From: a virus
Length of the DNA: 64,000 nt
Direction: 5' to 3' (one strand)
Virus record (IMG/VR): IMGVR_UViG_3300002835_007523
Location: 35,094 to 99,093 of that record
A model generated the notes under the pieces. It did no database searches. It worked only from the letters and a program-made list of their open reading frames with translations, and was not told the origin of the DNA. The number at the start of each line of letters is the position of its first letter. The stretch's first letter is position 1. A program made the position numbers and the translations under genes. Below are positions 50,165-64,000 of this stretch, in pieces.

Positions 50165-50404
50165 TTATAGCTTCACTTCAACTACACAGCTGAAGATCTT
50201 GTTGTCATCAGATGCTACCCAAGGTAAACGACCTCGGTTTAGAACACTGGCTGCCCAACGCTTTGCTGGAGCAAGGCTGCCCCAAGCTGAGTAACGGGTT
50301 GGGATGTCATCGGCTCCGCCCACTACCTTTACGTGTGCTAACCACGCTCCGCCCTTTTCCTGGTTTTTTTCTAGCATTACTTGATACTGCACTTTTGCTC
50401 GCAC
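50165..50404 (-). CDS. Hypothetical protein overlapping the repair gene
   Basis: A 79-residue protein starting at GTG after AAAGGAG. It reads 'MRAKVQYQVMLEKNQEKGGA' and then 'VASDDNKIFSCVVEVKL'. Its first 98 bases overlap the C-terminus of the pyrimidine-dimer glycosylase-like gene in another frame. The ribosome-binding site supports the long form; ATG 50377 is an alternative. Confidence 0.45.
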   Translation of the reverse strand: MRAKVQYQVMLEKNQEKGGAWLAHVKVVGGADDIPTRYSAWGSLAPAKRWAASVLNRGRLPWVASDDNKIFSCVVEVKL

Positions 50405-50873
50405 GTTTTGCTCCTTTTGTATTTTGTCTTGTTTTATATACTGTTACACGAAGAGTTCCATCTTCCTTTGGCCATTTGTATGGCAAGTCCTCTGGAACAG
50501 CAAACGTGTAGTGAAGAGGATCTTTACGTTTTAGGTTAGATTGATGGCTCTCGTGAAACTCTTGATTGCCCATCCACCATGGCCTTGATATATCCGGGGG
50601 GATCTCCTTCATTAACTCAGCAACCTGATTGGCTACTGAATCCTTATAACCTCGGTTAACCCACTCTACACACATGGCGAGTGTGTATACGCATAGGCTT
50701 CCCTCATGTCCACGCCACATTACTGCAGCGGGATGATTGCGCCAACCTTTTGTATAACCAAGATTGACCCGTAGTATTTGTAGTGCTTCTACACGCTGTT
50801 TGCCTAGACGTTTGTTGTCTAGGCTGGCGGCAGTCTTTGCATAGTCTGGATATGGAAGGAAAGTATTTACCAT
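50307..50873 (-). CDS. Pyrimidine-dimer DNA glycosylase-like protein
   Basis: The 188-residue product has the Pyr_excise/T4-endonuclease-V-like pattern: 'FLPYPDYAKTAASLDNKRLG', 'KQRVEALQILRV' and 'GWRNHPAAVMWRGHEGSLCV'. Such enzymes excise UV dimers. The C-terminus ('STRKGSGRSR') is very basic and lies in a region overlapping another gene. The ATG overlaps the previous stop (TAATG). Confidence 0.7.
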   Translation of the reverse strand: MVNTFLPYPDYAKTAASLDNKRLGKQRVEALQILRVNLGYTKGWRNHPAAVMWRGHEGSLCVYTLAMCVEWVNRGYKDSVANQVAELMKEIPPDISRPWWMGNQEFHESHQSNLKRKDPLHYTFAVPEDLPYKWPKEDGTLRVTVYKTRQNTKGAKRASKSAVSSNARKKPGKGRSVVSTRKGSGRSR

Positions 50874-53713: not shown

Positions 53714-55705
53714 TTATATTCTCTGTTTTTTCTTAATTGCTCCGACCACTACTTCCTTAGCCAAAGCAAGTAAGTCTTTGCTTGAGTTAACTCGCTTAAA
53801 CAATTCAGCACCATGTTGTAGCTCATACTCCGGGCTACCATACTTGTTGATTGCTTGCTGGTTTCTCTCTTCTATGGAGGCATAGTCTCTGTCACGCATG
53901 ATTAACACCATCGTGGTCAAGATACCCCGCTTGCTGATGCGTTTAATTACATCATCATTTTTATCAGAGTTAAAGACACCGTCCGTAATCATGAACAGCA
54001 TCTTATTCTTACGTTGAGATGACAGTAGTACTTTTTCTGCCATCAGTAACGACTCGTATGGATCGGTACCGCCATTGCCATAGATGAACTTGTACTTGGT
54101 ACGTTCAGCTTTCTGGGCTCTTGTGTATGCGATCTCTGTCTTGTCGTCAAATGCATAGACAGTTACTGGACAGTCTATGTGCTCTAAAGCACGTTTAATA
54201 GTCCAGCACATTAGAGATGCTTGACGATCGTTATTGTCACTGTTCATTGAGCCAGAACGATCGATCAAGATAACAGCTTCTATGTCTGTGCTGTCATCCC
54301 CTTCAGTCCAACGGTCAAAGGCTTCTTCGGCATTCCTATTGCGTATAAACCTACGCACATTCAGCTTGCCGGAAGATACTCCCCTGAACCAGTGTGGTTC
54401 TGAGTCATCTCTAAGCTTTTGTAGTTCGTGTGAGAATTTCTTGTAGTCTAGAAGATTAACTGGTGGGACAGGGACAGAGTCAAAGACTCCAGCCTCGGCC
54501 TCATCGAAATCTTCACGACCAGTTATGATTACTCGCTGCTTTCTGCGTATATCACGTAGAACATCTTTACGTGAATATATGTCTTCTAAAGCATCTTGTA
54601 TATCATCCATTAGATCATTGGGTATACCACCGAAACTCTTGTGGTGTCCGCTACCAGCATTCAAAGAGATCTGATCTTCTAACTCTGGGTCGAGTTGATC
54701 AATGCGTTCTTTGTTTTGCTGACGCAGTTCAAGAGCTTCTTCAGCATTCTGTGGAATTGTTGTAGAACTTATTGGTACTCCATTACCACCTTTTACGATG
54801 GATGATGATTCTTCCGAATCGTCCGGGCCAACTGGGAATCCACAGCCACCAGGCCATTCTTCTTGTTCCTCAGTAACGTCTTGCGGAGTTGCTGGGTCTT
54901 TGGGTGTATAGACTGACTCTCTTGTACCCATGTTTGCAGCAACCTTTGCGTCACGTTCTTGAGCTTTGCCTGGTTCTGGTCTACCCTTGATTAACGGTAG
55001 TCTGTCCATACATCCAGCATGTCCAGCATTCATCATCTCTTGATCTAGCTCATCAAGTACGAGCTTTTGAAACTCCTCGATCAATTGTTGAGCACGTTTG
55101 TAGTCTCTTGGAAATGCTAAGAGTCTGTACTCATCAATGATGCGTTGAATGTCTGGAATTAGTTCTGGTTTGTAGAACATATCTCTAAACGCTTCTCTGA
55201 TATGAACTGGCAAGTAACGTCTACCATAAAGCATTGGGTAGTTTGTCACTGCAGTATCTGGAGTTGCCGCTGCATGCTTGAGTGCAATCTCTTGCAAGTA
55301 GGGCATGACTGATGGATACCTTGCAATGAACAACGTCTCGCATCGTGCGTCCTCCAACAGGTTAAACGCCATGTAAAAACCTGTATCAATGACCCACTTG
55401 ATTATCGTTGTTCCTTTGCGAGGAGAATAGAAGTGATGAGCCAATTCGTGATAGTTAAGACCAGTCACGTTAGTCAGCGTTTCTATATCCATTTCGTCTA
55501 TCTTTGAAGCATTTAGCCAGATCGTTTCACCATCCGACCACGCTGCTGCGTGACCTTCTTTAACGACCTGAACAGTGATAGGATCGCCAGTTAGAACTCG
55601 ATCAGCACCCTCATACACTCTGGCAAGTGTTGAGAGTTGGAGTGCTCGAATCTGTTCTTTCTCAGATCGAAACTCTCCTTGTTCTATCTCATCTACATAT
55701 CCCAT
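53714..55705 (-). CDS. VWA-domain protein with HExxH motif
   Basis: A 663-residue protein. Residues 86-90 are HELAH in 'LNYHELAHHFY', the zinc-peptidase signature. An acidic middle region follows, and a VWA domain begins near residue 475 with MIDAS motif 'AVILIDRSGSMNSD', further 'MITDGVF' and a threonine-containing loop. This resembles the CobT/VWA partner of MoxR ATPases. It is encoded nine bases downstream of the MoxR-like gene. It may act in metal insertion, complex remodelling or proteolysis. Confidence 0.8.
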   Translation of the reverse strand: MGYVDEIEQGEFRSEKEQIRALQLSTLARVYEGADRVLTGDPITVQVVKEGHAAAWSDGETIWLNASKIDEMDIETLTNVTGLNYHELAHHFYSPRKGTTIIKWVIDTGFYMAFNLLEDARCETLFIARYPSVMPYLQEIALKHAAATPDTAVTNYPMLYGRRYLPVHIREAFRDMFYKPELIPDIQRIIDEYRLLAFPRDYKRAQQLIEEFQKLVLDELDQEMMNAGHAGCMDRLPLIKGRPEPGKAQERDAKVAANMGTRESVYTPKDPATPQDVTEEQEEWPGGCGFPVGPDDSEESSSIVKGGNGVPISSTTIPQNAEEALELRQQNKERIDQLDPELEDQISLNAGSGHHKSFGGIPNDLMDDIQDALEDIYSRKDVLRDIRRKQRVIITGREDFDEAEAGVFDSVPVPPVNLLDYKKFSHELQKLRDDSEPHWFRGVSSGKLNVRRFIRNRNAEEAFDRWTEGDDSTDIEAVILIDRSGSMNSDNNDRQASLMCWTIKRALEHIDCPVTVYAFDDKTEIAYTRAQKAERTKYKFIYGNGGTDPYESLLMAEKVLLSSQRKNKMLFMITDGVFNSDKNDDVIKRISKRGILTTMVLIMRDRDYASIEERNQQAINKYGSPEYELQHGAELFKRVNSSKDLLALAKEVVVGAIKKKQRI

Positions 55706-55714
55706 TTATTGCTC

Positions 55715-57106
55715 CTAGTTCTTTGTCTTTAGCCAAGCGTCTACTTCATCTGCGACAGGAGTCTCAGATCCTTTATCTTGTACTAGCTGTACCTCATTGA
55801 GGTTGAACTCTTCACGAAGATTGTATTCGTGAGTTTGGAATACAAGCTGGACCTTGTCCTGCTCGTCCTTGTCAAAGTGTGCAATAAAGTTAGCTACTGC
55901 AAACTCATAGCCAAATGCTGGTATAAAGCGTTCAAGCTCCATTGCCATATTGGTTGAGATTGGAGTTTCAAACTCACCTTTTGCTGCTTCGTTACGCATT
56001 TGCTTGACGATAAGTTTGATGGTCTTAGACTTAATCAACTTATCCTCGACATCGTCGTCGTAGTCCCAGTGAATTTGAACTGAGAAACGATTACGCATAG
56101 CAAAATTGAGCGGCGTAGTACCGACATACTCTGGGTTCATGGTGGCAAAGATCATGAGGTCTGGATGAGCCTCAATTGTCTCGCCGTGATGATCCAATAG
56201 CTGAAGGACACGTCGTCCGTCAAGGAGTGAATATAGACTGGTGTATATCTTTGGCGAGATAAAGTTAAACTCGTCAAGGATGAGTACGCCACCGTTACGA
56301 ACAACGTCAGTAACAGGACCGTCAATCCAGGCAAAGCCACCTGTCTCATGGTCATATATATCTTTACCAAAGAGAGTAGATGTCTCTAGCGCTGCATTGC
56401 CAGACACTTGAGCAACACGCTGTCTGCGTGCAGATGCCCATGCTAGAACTGCAGTAGTCTTACCGGGACCGGTAGGGCCGTAGATAAGGACGTCTTCGCC
56501 CATTTCTTTGGCCTTGTCAAAGCGTTCAAAGTCGGACTTGCCGAATAGAGTGCGATTGACATACTTAGATGCAAGCTCAAGCGGCGGTATTGAAGCTAGT
56601 GCTAGTGATAACACTTTGCCGTGTGTCTGAACCTGTGTAACTGGCGATGTTTGTGTTGGAGCGGACTCTGGCTCATCTCTACGCAGATCGATAATGCTTT
56701 CTGCTAGGGATTTGTCCTCGACGGATACTTTGTCATACAGTTCTTGTATGGCTTCTGTAGCTGGTCTACCATCTACTGTCTTGGAATTCTTGAATGATGA
56801 CAACGCTTTGTTGCCAAGCACTGGAGAATATCCACGCTCACTGATCTGTGTGTAATCACCGTCAGTTACATAGACAGCGATTGGTCGATTAGTTACGGTC
56901 TCGTGTTCAGATACAACGTCCAATAACGAATAGAGAGTAGTCGGTTGCCACTTGTTATGTGGACCTTTTTCTCCATCAGTTACTCTGGAATAAACCAGAA
57001 CTGGAACAGATTCGTTGTTCAGATCATTGTTAGGAACAATAAGAGTTTGACGCTTATTTGCTCCCATAGACGGTGTATACGTCTCGACGAACATCGCTAT
57101 ATTCAT
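55715..57106 (-). CDS. MoxR-like AAA+ ATPase
   Basis: A 463-residue protein. The N-terminal ~150 residues have no recognised domain. The AAA+ core has Walker A 'IYGPTGPGKTTAVL' (~210), Walker B 'VLILDEFNFISP' (~274), sensor 'IFATMNPEYVG' and arginine-finger 'FAMRNRFSVQIHWDY', typical of MoxR/CobS. It would remodel a partner, most likely the adjacent VWA protein. It is the first gene after the structured 341-base gap. GAAGGGAAAGG precedes the ATG. Confidence 0.85.
   Translation of the reverse strand: MNIAMFVETYTPSMGANKRQTLIVPNNDLNNESVPVLVYSRVTDGEKGPHNKWQPTTLYSLLDVVSEHETVTNRPIAVYVTDGDYTQISERGYSPVLGNKALSSFKNSKTVDGRPATEAIQELYDKVSVEDKSLAESIIDLRRDEPESAPTQTSPVTQVQTHGKVLSLALASIPPLELASKYVNRTLFGKSDFERFDKAKEMGEDVLIYGPTGPGKTTAVLAWASARRQRVAQVSGNAALETSTLFGKDIYDHETGGFAWIDGPVTDVVRNGGVLILDEFNFISPKIYTSLYSLLDGRRVLQLLDHHGETIEAHPDLMIFATMNPEYVGTTPLNFAMRNRFSVQIHWDYDDDVEDKLIKSKTIKLIVKQMRNEAAKGEFETPISTNMAMELERFIPAFGYEFAVANFIAHFDKDEQDKVQLVFQTHEYNLREEFNLNEVQLVQDKGSETPVADEVDAWLKTKN
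56647..56659 (-). repeat. 13-base motif copy inside the MoxR-like gene
   Basis: CCAACACAAACAT on the minus strand, within codons for Pro-Thr-Gln-Thr. It is identical to the intergenic copies over 13 bases but followed by C, not T. Confidence 0.5.
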
Positions 57107-57447
57107 TGTTGCCTTTCCCTTCTTTAGTTGGTATTTCTACCTCACCACTTACACGGTGTAAGTGGCTAGCAAGATAACCAAACCTGTTGGTTACCCTACT
57201 AGCCACTAACTAAATGGGCAAGGGGCTAACGCCGATATGCAGACGCGTTAGCCCCCGGCACCGGTATAGGCAAAACTACTTACCGAAGCTACTTACTCGC
57301 AGGAAGGAGATGAATCCAGGTTCTCCGATGATGTAAGCGCTATGCACTTACGATATTCGGCCAGAAACAAGGATTGAGAGCTCTGGTCTACTTTCTTTAG
57401 AGGAAGCCTGTTTTGCCTACCCCTCCGTCAACCGGTGTTGACGAAAT
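57107..57447. other. Structured 341-base intergenic region
   Basis: This gap has no gene. It holds a 10-bp palindrome (57145-57165) overlapping a competing 9-bp stem (57161-57169/57199-57207), an 11-bp hairpin (57222-57255), a 7-bp hairpin (57426-57443) and a distant 10-bp inverted repeat (57267-57276/57410-57419). GTAAGT/ACTTAC occurs five times. It may hold an origin, an ncRNA or a control region for the MoxR operon. Confidence 0.6.
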
Positions 57448-58173
57448 CTATACTTGCTCAAGAGTTATGGTTGAATCCCAAGCCGCTCTCAATATAGGTG
57501 CACTATCTAACAGTGTGGCTTTCCACTCTTTTGATATTGCCTCTGATATTTCTTTGGTTGATAGGCCCTGTTGTCTACCATCCATATGCCATCTATTGAC
57601 GCACTTCATATACAGAGATATAGACTCTGGCATTGGTTTACCGTTCAATAGTTTGGGGAACTCATTTGCTAGGTCAATAGATAGGGCTGTGTGTTTGTAT
57701 ATGCCTGCCATATTTATGGCAAGAGGACCGTAAAACTTTACGGCATGAGCAGGCCAGCCATTCCTCCAATTATACGTTGACATAATTCTGTATATTCGAA
57801 TTATCTCTACAAGATATCTAGGCCGTAGAGTTTGATTGTTGTACCACTTTATTTTCTTTATTAGTTCGGCTGCAACTAGTAGGGGATAGTCCTCGTATAG
57901 TTGTGTGTAATAACAGGGTAGGTACCCATATTTACCGTTGTAGATTGCTTTTGCTATTACTTCTGGGGGAATCTTTTCTGCAGTTTCATGGCCTTCTGTA
58001 AAATAAAACGGGGTATATAGCGGCCGTTCACCATCTGTAGATAACCACGATGGAACTTCATCTCTTATGAATTTACTGGCTTCATCGTGGTCGTCTTCTC
58101 CTAGTGTTAACACTTCAAGGTCTTGACTTGTGTCTTGATCTCTGTGAGTTAACATAGTTGTTTCATTGGTCAC
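57448..58173 (-). CDS. Hypothetical protein
   Basis: The 241-residue protein is acidic at the start and has 'YGYLPCYYTQLYEDYPLLVA' and 'STYNWRNGWPAHAVKFYGPL', Tyr/Trp-rich helical segments. GTG is the start after AAGGAGAAAAAG. It lies upstream of the structured gap. No family was recognised. Confidence 0.45.
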   Translation of the reverse strand: MTNETTMLTHRDQDTSQDLEVLTLGEDDHDEASKFIRDEVPSWLSTDGERPLYTPFYFTEGHETAEKIPPEVIAKAIYNGKYGYLPCYYTQLYEDYPLLVAAELIKKIKWYNNQTLRPRYLVEIIRIYRIMSTYNWRNGWPAHAVKFYGPLAINMAGIYKHTALSIDLANEFPKLLNGKPMPESISLYMKCVNRWHMDGRQQGLSTKEISEAISKEWKATLLDSAPILRAAWDSTITLEQV

Positions 58174-59073: not shown

Positions 59074-59147
59074 TGCGCTGTGTAGGACTTGAACCTACGA
59101 CGACCGGATTATGAGTCCGGGGCTCTAACCAACTGAGCTAACAGCGC
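59074..59147 (-). tRNA. tRNA with CAT anticodon (Ile2 or Met)
   Basis: The minus strand folds into a full cloverleaf: 7-bp acceptor stem (GCGCTGT/ACAGCGC), D-arm GCTC/GAGC, anticodon stem CCGGA/TCCGG with loop CTCATAA, 5-base variable loop and T-arm GTAGG/CCTAC with TTCAAGT. The discriminator is A and no CCA is encoded. The anticodon CAT could read Met or, if lysidine-modified, Ile (AUA). TTCAAGT is the form in bacterial tRNA-Ile2. The gene lies 24 bases after a coding stop. Confidence 0.9.
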
Positions 59148-59171: not shown

Positions 59172-59459
59172 CTATTTATGGCTATCACACGTGCATTCTT
59201 GCCCATCAGCAAGTGCGTATTTACTGTAGTCCACATTAGGTACGGCCATAGTAAATACTCTTATCATGCGTCTAACTTTCCACTCCATTAGTTGTGCAGG
59301 AAATGCTGCACCCCACATGGTGTCATAACTTTGTATCTGATCTACTCGTATGATGGACTCACTGGTCCTATGGCTTTGAGGCCAGTTGTAATTAGTTATC
59401 TTATAGATAACTGGGGTATCACAACGATACCTAACTGATTCATCTATCACTCCATGCAT
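59172..59459 (-). CDS. Small hypothetical protein
   Basis: A 95-residue protein with 'PVIYKITNYNWPQSHR' and a CTC motif near the end ('QECTCDSHK'). It overlaps its upstream WhiB-like gene by one base (TAATG). The tRNA follows 24 bases downstream. No family was recognised. Confidence 0.45.
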   Translation of the reverse strand: MHGVIDESVRYRCDTPVIYKITNYNWPQSHRTSESIIRVDQIQSYDTMWGAAFPAQLMEWKVRRMIRVFTMAVPNVDYSKYALADGQECTCDSHK

Positions 59460-59788
59460 TACTCATCTCTCTTTCGTGTTCTTCGTATCCGTATAACATA
59501 CAGTTCATCTTCGTCTAAACCTCCCCACACACCAAAGTCTTGACGAGTATTGACTGCAAAGTCAAGGCATTCTGTAGTTACGGTGCAGGTAGCACAGACT
59601 AGCTTTGCCTGTCGTGTTCTTTCATCCTTTTCCGGACCGCGTTCTTGGTCGGGATGAAAGAATAGTTCTGGATCTACAGTTCTACAAGCAGCATCCTCTT
59701 GCCACTGGTAATTCTTTAGCGTCGGTGTAGGTAATCGTTTGATTACTACATTTGTTTGAACAATAGTGCGTCGTATCCTAGAGGACAT
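59459..59788 (-). CDS. WhiB-like Fe-S transcription factor
   Basis: The 109-residue Wbl protein has cysteines at 35, 65, 68 and 74 and the 'FGVWGGLDEDE' turn, all canonical. An N-terminal extension of ~30 residues precedes the core, and the C-terminus is basic ('RIRRTRKRDE'). It is the third Wbl gene of the phage and lies in the leftward arm, so it may act early. It overlaps its neighbour by 11 bases. Confidence 0.9.
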   Translation of the reverse strand: MSSRIRRTIVQTNVVIKRLPTPTLKNYQWQEDAACRTVDPELFFHPDQERGPEKDERTRQAKLVCATCTVTTECLDFAVNTRQDFGVWGGLDEDELYVIRIRRTRKRDE

Positions 59789-63328: not shown

Positions 63329-63471
63329 TTACTCACCTCCTTATGTTTAGACTCAAGTAGCAGATTAGCGTTCTTGAGACAGGTATCGCACCCACACGAG
63401 TCTCGTAGGGCATTTACAATCTCATAGAACTCCCATGTGCCTATCGTGATAGTCGTTTGACCGATGTCCAT
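63325..63471 (-). CDS. Small protein with CGCDTC knuckle
   Basis: A 48-residue protein with 'ALRDSCGCDTCLKNANLLLE'. ATG 63471 follows AGGAGGG at the right spacing; an upstream GTG lacks a site. It is coupled to the next gene by ATGA. The function is unknown. Confidence 0.5.
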   Translation of the reverse strand: MDIGQTTITIGTWEFYEIVNALRDSCGCDTCLKNANLLLESKHKEVSK

Positions 63472-63540
63472 ACAGACCCTCCTGTCGTATGTGATAACAG
63501 CATGACCCTCATGCCGAAAACCTGGTTGCTCTGCCACACA

Positions 63541-63716
63541 GTTGAGTGGCGTGCGTCACAGTGGCCTATTCTTCTAACAGAGATGTTAGAGAACTAAGAT
63601 TATAGTTTCTCCATAGCGACACACAGAGGGCGGGAAAGTATAAGACCCCCTGTGTGCCACTAAAGAGAGAGAGACTATGCCCCTTCTGACATAGTCTCTC
63701 CCCTGCCTCTAGCGTC
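63541..63716. other. Noncoding region with hairpins and a -10-like box
   Basis: This 176-base stretch holds TCTAACA/TGTTAGA (63573-63590), a CACACAG hairpin near 63625-63657, and an 11-bp stem at 63669-63700 that fits a terminator for the gene on its right. TATAAT (minus strand, 63604-63599) could be the -10 box for the leftward genes. Confidence 0.5.
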
Positions 63717-64000
63717 TTACGCTAGAAGTGTAGTTAGCAAGGCTTGAACCTTGACTAACTCAGCACGCTCAGCTGAATTGAGCGATGTGTCGACATTGGC
63801 AACGAGAACGTCTGCGAATGCTGGTGCTTGCTTGACAATGTCAATAGCAGCAGCATCACGAGCAGCGCTTCGTGCGTCAGCCTTAGCCTCACCCTCAAGA
63901 ATGAGTGCGTCGAACGCATCATTGAGGGCTTCGTCGGCAGTTGTCTCTAGGGCAGACTTGATGTCTTCCCATGAGACGAACTTGGCAGCAAGAGAAGCGG
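63717..64000 (-). CDS. Ala-rich hypothetical protein, 5' end outside window
   Basis: At least 94 residues, Ala-rich and helical ('FDALILEGEAKADARSAARD', 'ADVLVANVDTSLNSAERAEL'), ending in LLTTLLA. The start lies beyond the window. A 7-bp hairpin (63709-63725) overlaps its stop codon. No family was recognised. Confidence 0.55.
   Translation of the reverse strand, partial: ASLAAKFVSWEDIKSALETTADEALNDAFDALILEGEAKADARSAARDAAAIDIVKQAPAFADVLVANVDTSLNSAERAELVKVQALLTTLLA

Follow-up and report, generated by a model that had tools for sequence, protein, structure and literature searches.

In the leader of the phage lambda N gene, the nutL boxB hairpin and a hairpin for RNase III lie ahead of the ribosome-binding site of N. 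Structures consisting of an acceptor stem and a T-arm are minimal substrates of RNase P and RNase Z, and tRNA-like elements of the mascRNA/MEN-beta type are processed from longer RNAs. Larger structured RNAs are known as well, and GOLLD and ROOL are often phage-borne. Together with OLE they represent the large and ornate non-coding RNAs (ncRNAs) of phages and bacteria (PMC12286853, PMC2864571). The present analysis concerns a non-coding gap in front of a gene for a MoxR-like ATPase in an uncultured phage. Comparison with related phages shows that the gap corresponds to a conserved, predicted structured RNA on the minus strand, whose position relative to moxR is fixed.

The region upstream of moxR

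The window is the whole stretch of DNA analysed, i.e. the final 64 kb (positions 35094-99093) of a phage record of 99,093 bases. Between 49.5 and 63 kb of the window the minus strand predominates among the larger open reading frames (ORFs). The gap is bounded by two minus-strand genes and adjoins moxR on the upstream side. The features are as follows:

57448-58173, minus strand: gene of unknown function, on the other side of the gap from moxR
57107-57447, minus strand: structured RNA region (the gap), MFE -138.9 kcal/mol, z -9.1; position and architecture common to the relatives L004-L007
57423-57446, minus strand: H0, 5' hairpin UUUCGUCAACACCGGUUGACGGAG; counterpart in relatives not recognised
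57263-57421, minus strand: domain 1, multibranch; closing helix GGUAGGCAAAAC (57410-57421) / GUUUUGCCUAUACC (57263-57276), with 10 pairs at a probability of about 1
57333-57351, minus strand: hairpin GUAAGUGC-AUA-GCGCUUAC within domain 1, holding one GTAAGT; not conserved
57221-57256, minus strand: H2, 12-bp hairpin with the loop GUCUG-CA-UAUCG (57233-57244); covariation over six sequences
57117-57218, minus strand: domain 3; CCCAUUUAGU (57209-57218) pairs with ACUAAAGAAGGG (57117-57128), the latter containing the moxR Shine-Dalgarno sequence
57161-57207, minus strand: long hairpin of about 21 pairs, replacing the tRNA-like element of relatives
57145-57165, minus strand: 21-nt palindrome CCACTTACACCGTGTAAGTGG, i.e. 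CCACTTACAC-G-GTGTAAGTGG; shares 4 bp with the long hairpin; according to the predicted fold of the complete RNA it does not form
57112-57122, minus strand: moxR Shine-Dalgarno sequence GAAGGGAAAGG; its GGG (57117-57119) about 90% paired
55715-57106, minus strand: moxR, MoxR/CobS-like AAA ATPase of 463 aa (Pfam AAA_5, 3.7e-20); syntenic in relatives; first gene downstream of the RNA
53714-55705: VWA protein, next after moxR (Pfam VWA_2, 1.8e-5, slightly below the family cut-off)

The gap contains no ORF longer than 37 aa, and no promoter-like site was found on its minus strand. Elsewhere on the same strand of the window, 50307-50873 encodes a pyrimidine dimer glycosylase (Pfam Pyr_excise), and a WhiB-like protein recognised by eye (59459-59788) suggests that the host is an actinobacterium.

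Folding and repeats of the gap

The original prediction described nested inverted repeats in the gap, and all of those named are present. Folded as minus-strand RNA, the gap lies far beyond chance, since none of 100 dinucleotide shuffles reached an energy as low as its -138.9 kcal/mol (z -9.1). One 200-nt piece has the third lowest energy among 1278 scanned in the window. The 11-bp hairpin at 57222-57255 forms 12 pairs as RNA (H2), the 7-bp hairpin at 57426-57443 forms 9-10 pairs (H0), and the distant 10-bp inverted repeat is found at 57267-57276 and 57410-57419. The 10-bp palindrome and the 9-bp stem both exist as well, but the latter turned out to be the end of the much longer hairpin 57161-57207. 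The attenuator-like mutual exclusion proposed for these left stems is one-sided in energy: the overlap comprises only 4 bp, the long hairpin is favoured by 5.4 kcal/mol and the pair probability of the palindrome in the full RNA fold is about 0.001. Relatives have a covarying 7-bp hairpin roughly where the palindrome is located in the window.

A second strong and mostly non-coding fold is found on the minus strand at 63440-63720 (z -7.5), with the lowest 200-nt energies of the window. It is composed of a hairpin (63666-63703) with a CU-rich tail, followed by a long hairpin AGUGGCACACAGGGGG...CCCUCUGUGUGUCGCU. A similar place in L004 (1515-1900) also folds strongly (z -5.4).

Five GTAAGT/ACTTAC sites had been noted as half-sites recalling the iterons of an origin. 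All of them exist, at 57147 (not 57149, as given at first), 57158, 57278, 57291 and 57346, where 0.19 would be expected from the density in the window. Together with the 21-nt palindrome, five such sites in 341 nt are what a DNA element would offer, either an iteron-based replication origin or an array of repressor operators. This reading is nevertheless very improbable. Six of seven homologous gaps (L004, L005, L006, L024, L026 and L030) lack the sites and L007 has one; the gap has a GC content of 48%, above that of the genome, and lacks an AT-rich stretch; the skew does not change at the gap. Furthermore, covariation, conserved loops and U-G pairs point to RNA, and three of the five sites fall mostly inside stems. 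Some hexamer occurs at least five times in 4.2% of random 341-nt stretches, and the half-sites taken alone would fit a non-coding gap whose inverted repeats came together by chance. As an account of the whole gap, chance is hardly credible given the fold (z -9.1) and the strong covariation in relatives.

Conservation of the H2 hairpin

With the MoxR and VWA proteins as queries, 50 distinct moxR upstream regions were obtained, plus that of L007. The gap is unchanged in L002 and L003. In L004-L007, whose MoxR proteins are 50-60% identical to that of the window, the gap has a similar length and the same plan but a different sequence. Among cultured phages, the nearest relatives found were Brevibacterium phage Cantare and the Gordonia phages GMA6 and DalanDe, with an identity of about 44% in the core of the ATPase. 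In these phages no more than 51-66 nt precede the moxR homologue, and the gap is therefore special to an uncultured lineage. No MoxR relative in cellular genomes was matched by the patterns used.

The best conserved part is H2. Its loop is invariant across carriers, GUCUG-N1-2-(U/C)AUCG, whereas the stem varies freely: in six sequences both partners have changed in 9 of the 12 pairs, and 98.6% of the cells are paired, compared with about 43% in a control with the partner slid by one column. U-G pairs identify the minus strand as the functional one. The covariance model R1, built from the six sequences, was searched against 640 kb from 51 sources and independently recovered L026-L028 (E 1e-6 to 2e-5). 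Confident matches were obtained in 10 of the 51 sources, every one upstream of moxR, and weak second copies of H2 lie within domain 1 of L005/L006 (0.006), L007 (0.17) and L004 (2.9); nothing else in the 640 kb was convincing. Two DNA-pattern scans of a viral collection with the loop motif gave no true member beyond the phages already known. The remaining loop-motif matches were rejected as unrelated contigs with similarity mainly in the loop. The number of independent sequences with H2 is only about six. In the MoxR tree the carriers fall into a single clade (support 100/99). L007, too short for this tree, groups with L004-L006 (support 99/97).

A hairpin at such a place could also be an intrinsic terminator or attenuator between the upstream genes and moxR-VWA, with the remainder of the gap as spacer. 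Strong U-run hairpins do stand before the small gene in the related phages L024, L031, L053 and L060. In the window H2 is followed by UGCCCAUUUAG and not by a U-run, a terminator scan found none there, and termination does not need an invariant loop of 11-12 nt. As it would also leave domains 1 and 3 unexplained, this reading is regarded as improbable.

Domain 1

Directly 5' of H2 a long-range helix encloses a multibranch domain in the window and in L004-L007, formed by unrelated sequences with pair probabilities mostly above 0.9. It beats shuffles in four independent lineages (Fisher p 8e-8), and chance is ruled out for this helix as well as for H2. In L004-L006 the 5' strand of the helix lies partly within the end of the upstream gene. 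The interior of the domain in the window is not alignable with that of L004-L007, and a search for the closing helix in L024, L026 and L030 did not find it.

Domain 3 and the tRNA-like element

Every member has a helix-rich domain between H2 and moxR, in L024 and L026-L028 following an intervening small gene. The comparison shows a conserved predicted architecture, with the closing helix of domain 1, H2, and domain 3 immediately before moxR. In the window, L004-L007 and L026 the predicted domain 3 helix takes in the moxR Shine-Dalgarno sequence with a homologous upstream strand. Tested against shuffles, this helix is significant for the combined clade (p 2e-5), whereas for the window taken by itself it is not (p 0.27). 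On this comparison, the Shine-Dalgarno sequence lies within the predicted helix in the close relatives of the window; in L030 and L028 the pairing is not clear, and partly paired Shine-Dalgarno sequences occur also at other genes of the window.

In eight relatives (L004-L006, L024, L026-L028 and L030) domain 3 encloses a tRNA-like acceptor stem and T-arm, for example GCGUG...CAAGG-UUCAAGU-CCUUG-A-CACGCA, in which 7 of 11 pairs are double-changed. It is followed by hairpin 3b, 100% paired and with 6 of its 7 pairs double-changed. Neither ARAGORN nor the Rfam tRNA model reports a tRNA or tmRNA for the element before moxR. An acceptor stem with a 5-bp T-arm and a 7-nt T-loop was not found in the window, which, like L007, has a plain long hairpin instead. 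Because L007 groups with L004-L006, one form has replaced the other at least once. At 59074-59147 the minus strand of the window carries a tRNA gene with CAT anticodon, which resembles the element in its T-arm and 3' acceptor and is a possible source of it.

The conserved architecture, the covariation and the predicted pairing with the moxR Shine-Dalgarno sequence favour the two remaining options of the original prediction, a structured ncRNA or a switch controlling the MoxR operon.

A different RNA in the sister clade

A sister clade of phages has a different conserved RNA upstream of moxR, with 22 members (e.g. L036:1552-1717 and L039:5007-5170). It precedes an intervening gene for a small acidic protein. 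Its closing helix pairs GGUUGGCU with AGCCAACC and shows compensatory changes (8 of 15 pairs), and its 3' part is conserved as GUCCCUG...GCAACGGGGGUAAGCC. The model R2 was built from 18 of these phages and added L034, L056, L116 and L150. As R2 found no match in the clade of the window (window, L004-L007, L024, L026-L028 and L030), homology with the window RNA is undetectable and identity of the two RNAs is not claimed. The slot before moxR is nevertheless occupied by a predicted structured RNA in both clades, and in still other relatives it holds hairpins resembling terminators. A cobalamin riboswitch had been suspected from the CobS/CobT-like genes and from a GCAACGG motif of the sister clade, but was rejected with no Rfam match; the members scanned gave no credible match to any Rfam family.

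Most relatives, among them L029, L031, L032, L036 and L040, encode a small acidic protein between the RNA and moxR. It measures about 80 aa (MCHECDDE...EEREEFLDYA...LITEWP...); its gene is missing before moxR in the window, L004-L007 and L030. In addition, a recurring motif, approximately GCGGGAG-stem-GACGAAAAC, is located after the preceding gene and upstream of the RNA in L026, L030, L031, L032, L036 and L055, and looks like another small hairpin or pseudoknot.

Interpretation

With a probability of roughly 55%, the gap is a predicted cis-acting structured RNA within a polycistronic phage transcript, serving as a translational or processing leader for moxR. Domain 3 would keep the translation of moxR low, and the invariant H2 loop would be a putative recognition site for a protein, an RNA or a small ligand. 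The element enclosed by domain 3 may be a site of processing or binding, either as a long RNase III-like hairpin (window and L007) or as a minimal acceptor/T-arm of the RNase P/RNase Z type (others). Processing or binding would then open the Shine-Dalgarno sequence or separate the RNA from the moxR message. A point against the leader is that simple Shine-Dalgarno masking needs neither a conserved H2 loop nor a domain 1 of this size.

It is possible, though rather unlikely, that the RNA is instead a stand-alone phage ncRNA which is cut from the operon transcript at the long hairpin or tRNA-like element and acts in trans or as an RNA-protein particle, with moxR as a mere neighbour. The size of about 300 nt, the multibranch domain and the invariant loop are closer to free RNAs than to a simple leader, the acceptor/T-arm elements of relatives are located at the 3' end, and the sister clade retains a different structured RNA in spite of a small gene before moxR. 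Against this stand the position upstream of moxR, fixed throughout the H2 clade, the extension of the last helix into the moxR Shine-Dalgarno sequence, and a minus strand of the gap without a promoter-like site.

Beyond the leader function a wider reading may be put forward tentatively. The phage RNA would then belong to a new class: a three-domain particle, either free or acting in cis, whose invariant loop (GUCUG-N-UAUCG) binds a dedicated factor, and whose minimal tRNA-like element and long double-stranded hairpin interchange as a processing or control site before the MoxR-VWA operon. At the same position the sister phages have a conserved RNA that is unrelated, which would imply that the operon depends on control by RNA or on a partner RNA.

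Comparison with known systems

At the gathering threshold of Rfam 15 the only match in the window is the tRNA at 59074-59147, and the relatives behave likewise. The gap alone gave only chance matches to miRNA, snoRNA and HCV families at E<5, and no known riboswitch aptamer was matched even at permissive Rfam thresholds. In the open literature on phage structured RNAs near MoxR, GOLLD/ROOL-type RNAs, tRNA-like leaders and RNase III/lambda N leaders (subscription journals being mostly outside this coverage) no account of the RNA was found. The analysis adds at least one conserved structured RNA absent from Rfam; the sister phages contribute a second class, which is the larger. The RNA lies at a fixed place before an operon for a MoxR-like ATPase and a VWA protein, a type which many phages carry. 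The replacement of a tRNA-like element by a long hairpin at the same site offers a testable case of two RNA-processing signals for one job.

With Shine-Dalgarno-sequestering leaders and riboswitches of bacteria the RNA shares a last helix predicted to include the Shine-Dalgarno sequence of the downstream gene, but it has no match to a known aptamer. The acceptor stem and T-arm of relatives, with a tRNA-type loop, recall the mascRNA/MEN-beta type (RF01684); the T-arm match is weak (13.5 bits) and far under gathering, D and anticodon arms are lacking, and the window itself has the plain long hairpin. GOLLD, ROOL and OLE are likewise multi-domain, highly structured and conserved within lineages, but measure 500-800 nt against about 300 nt here, whereas the gap RNA is without an Rfam match and tied to one gene. 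The order of parts is that of the phage lambda N leader: a hairpin with a conserved loop, a long hairpin suited to RNase III and a Shine-Dalgarno sequence predicted to be controlled by the region. The predicted gap RNA differs in the absence of boxA and boxB sequences, in its additional multibranch domain and in preceding a MoxR ATPase. It is not taken to be a member of the lambda N system, and the resemblance to that leader is one of anatomy.
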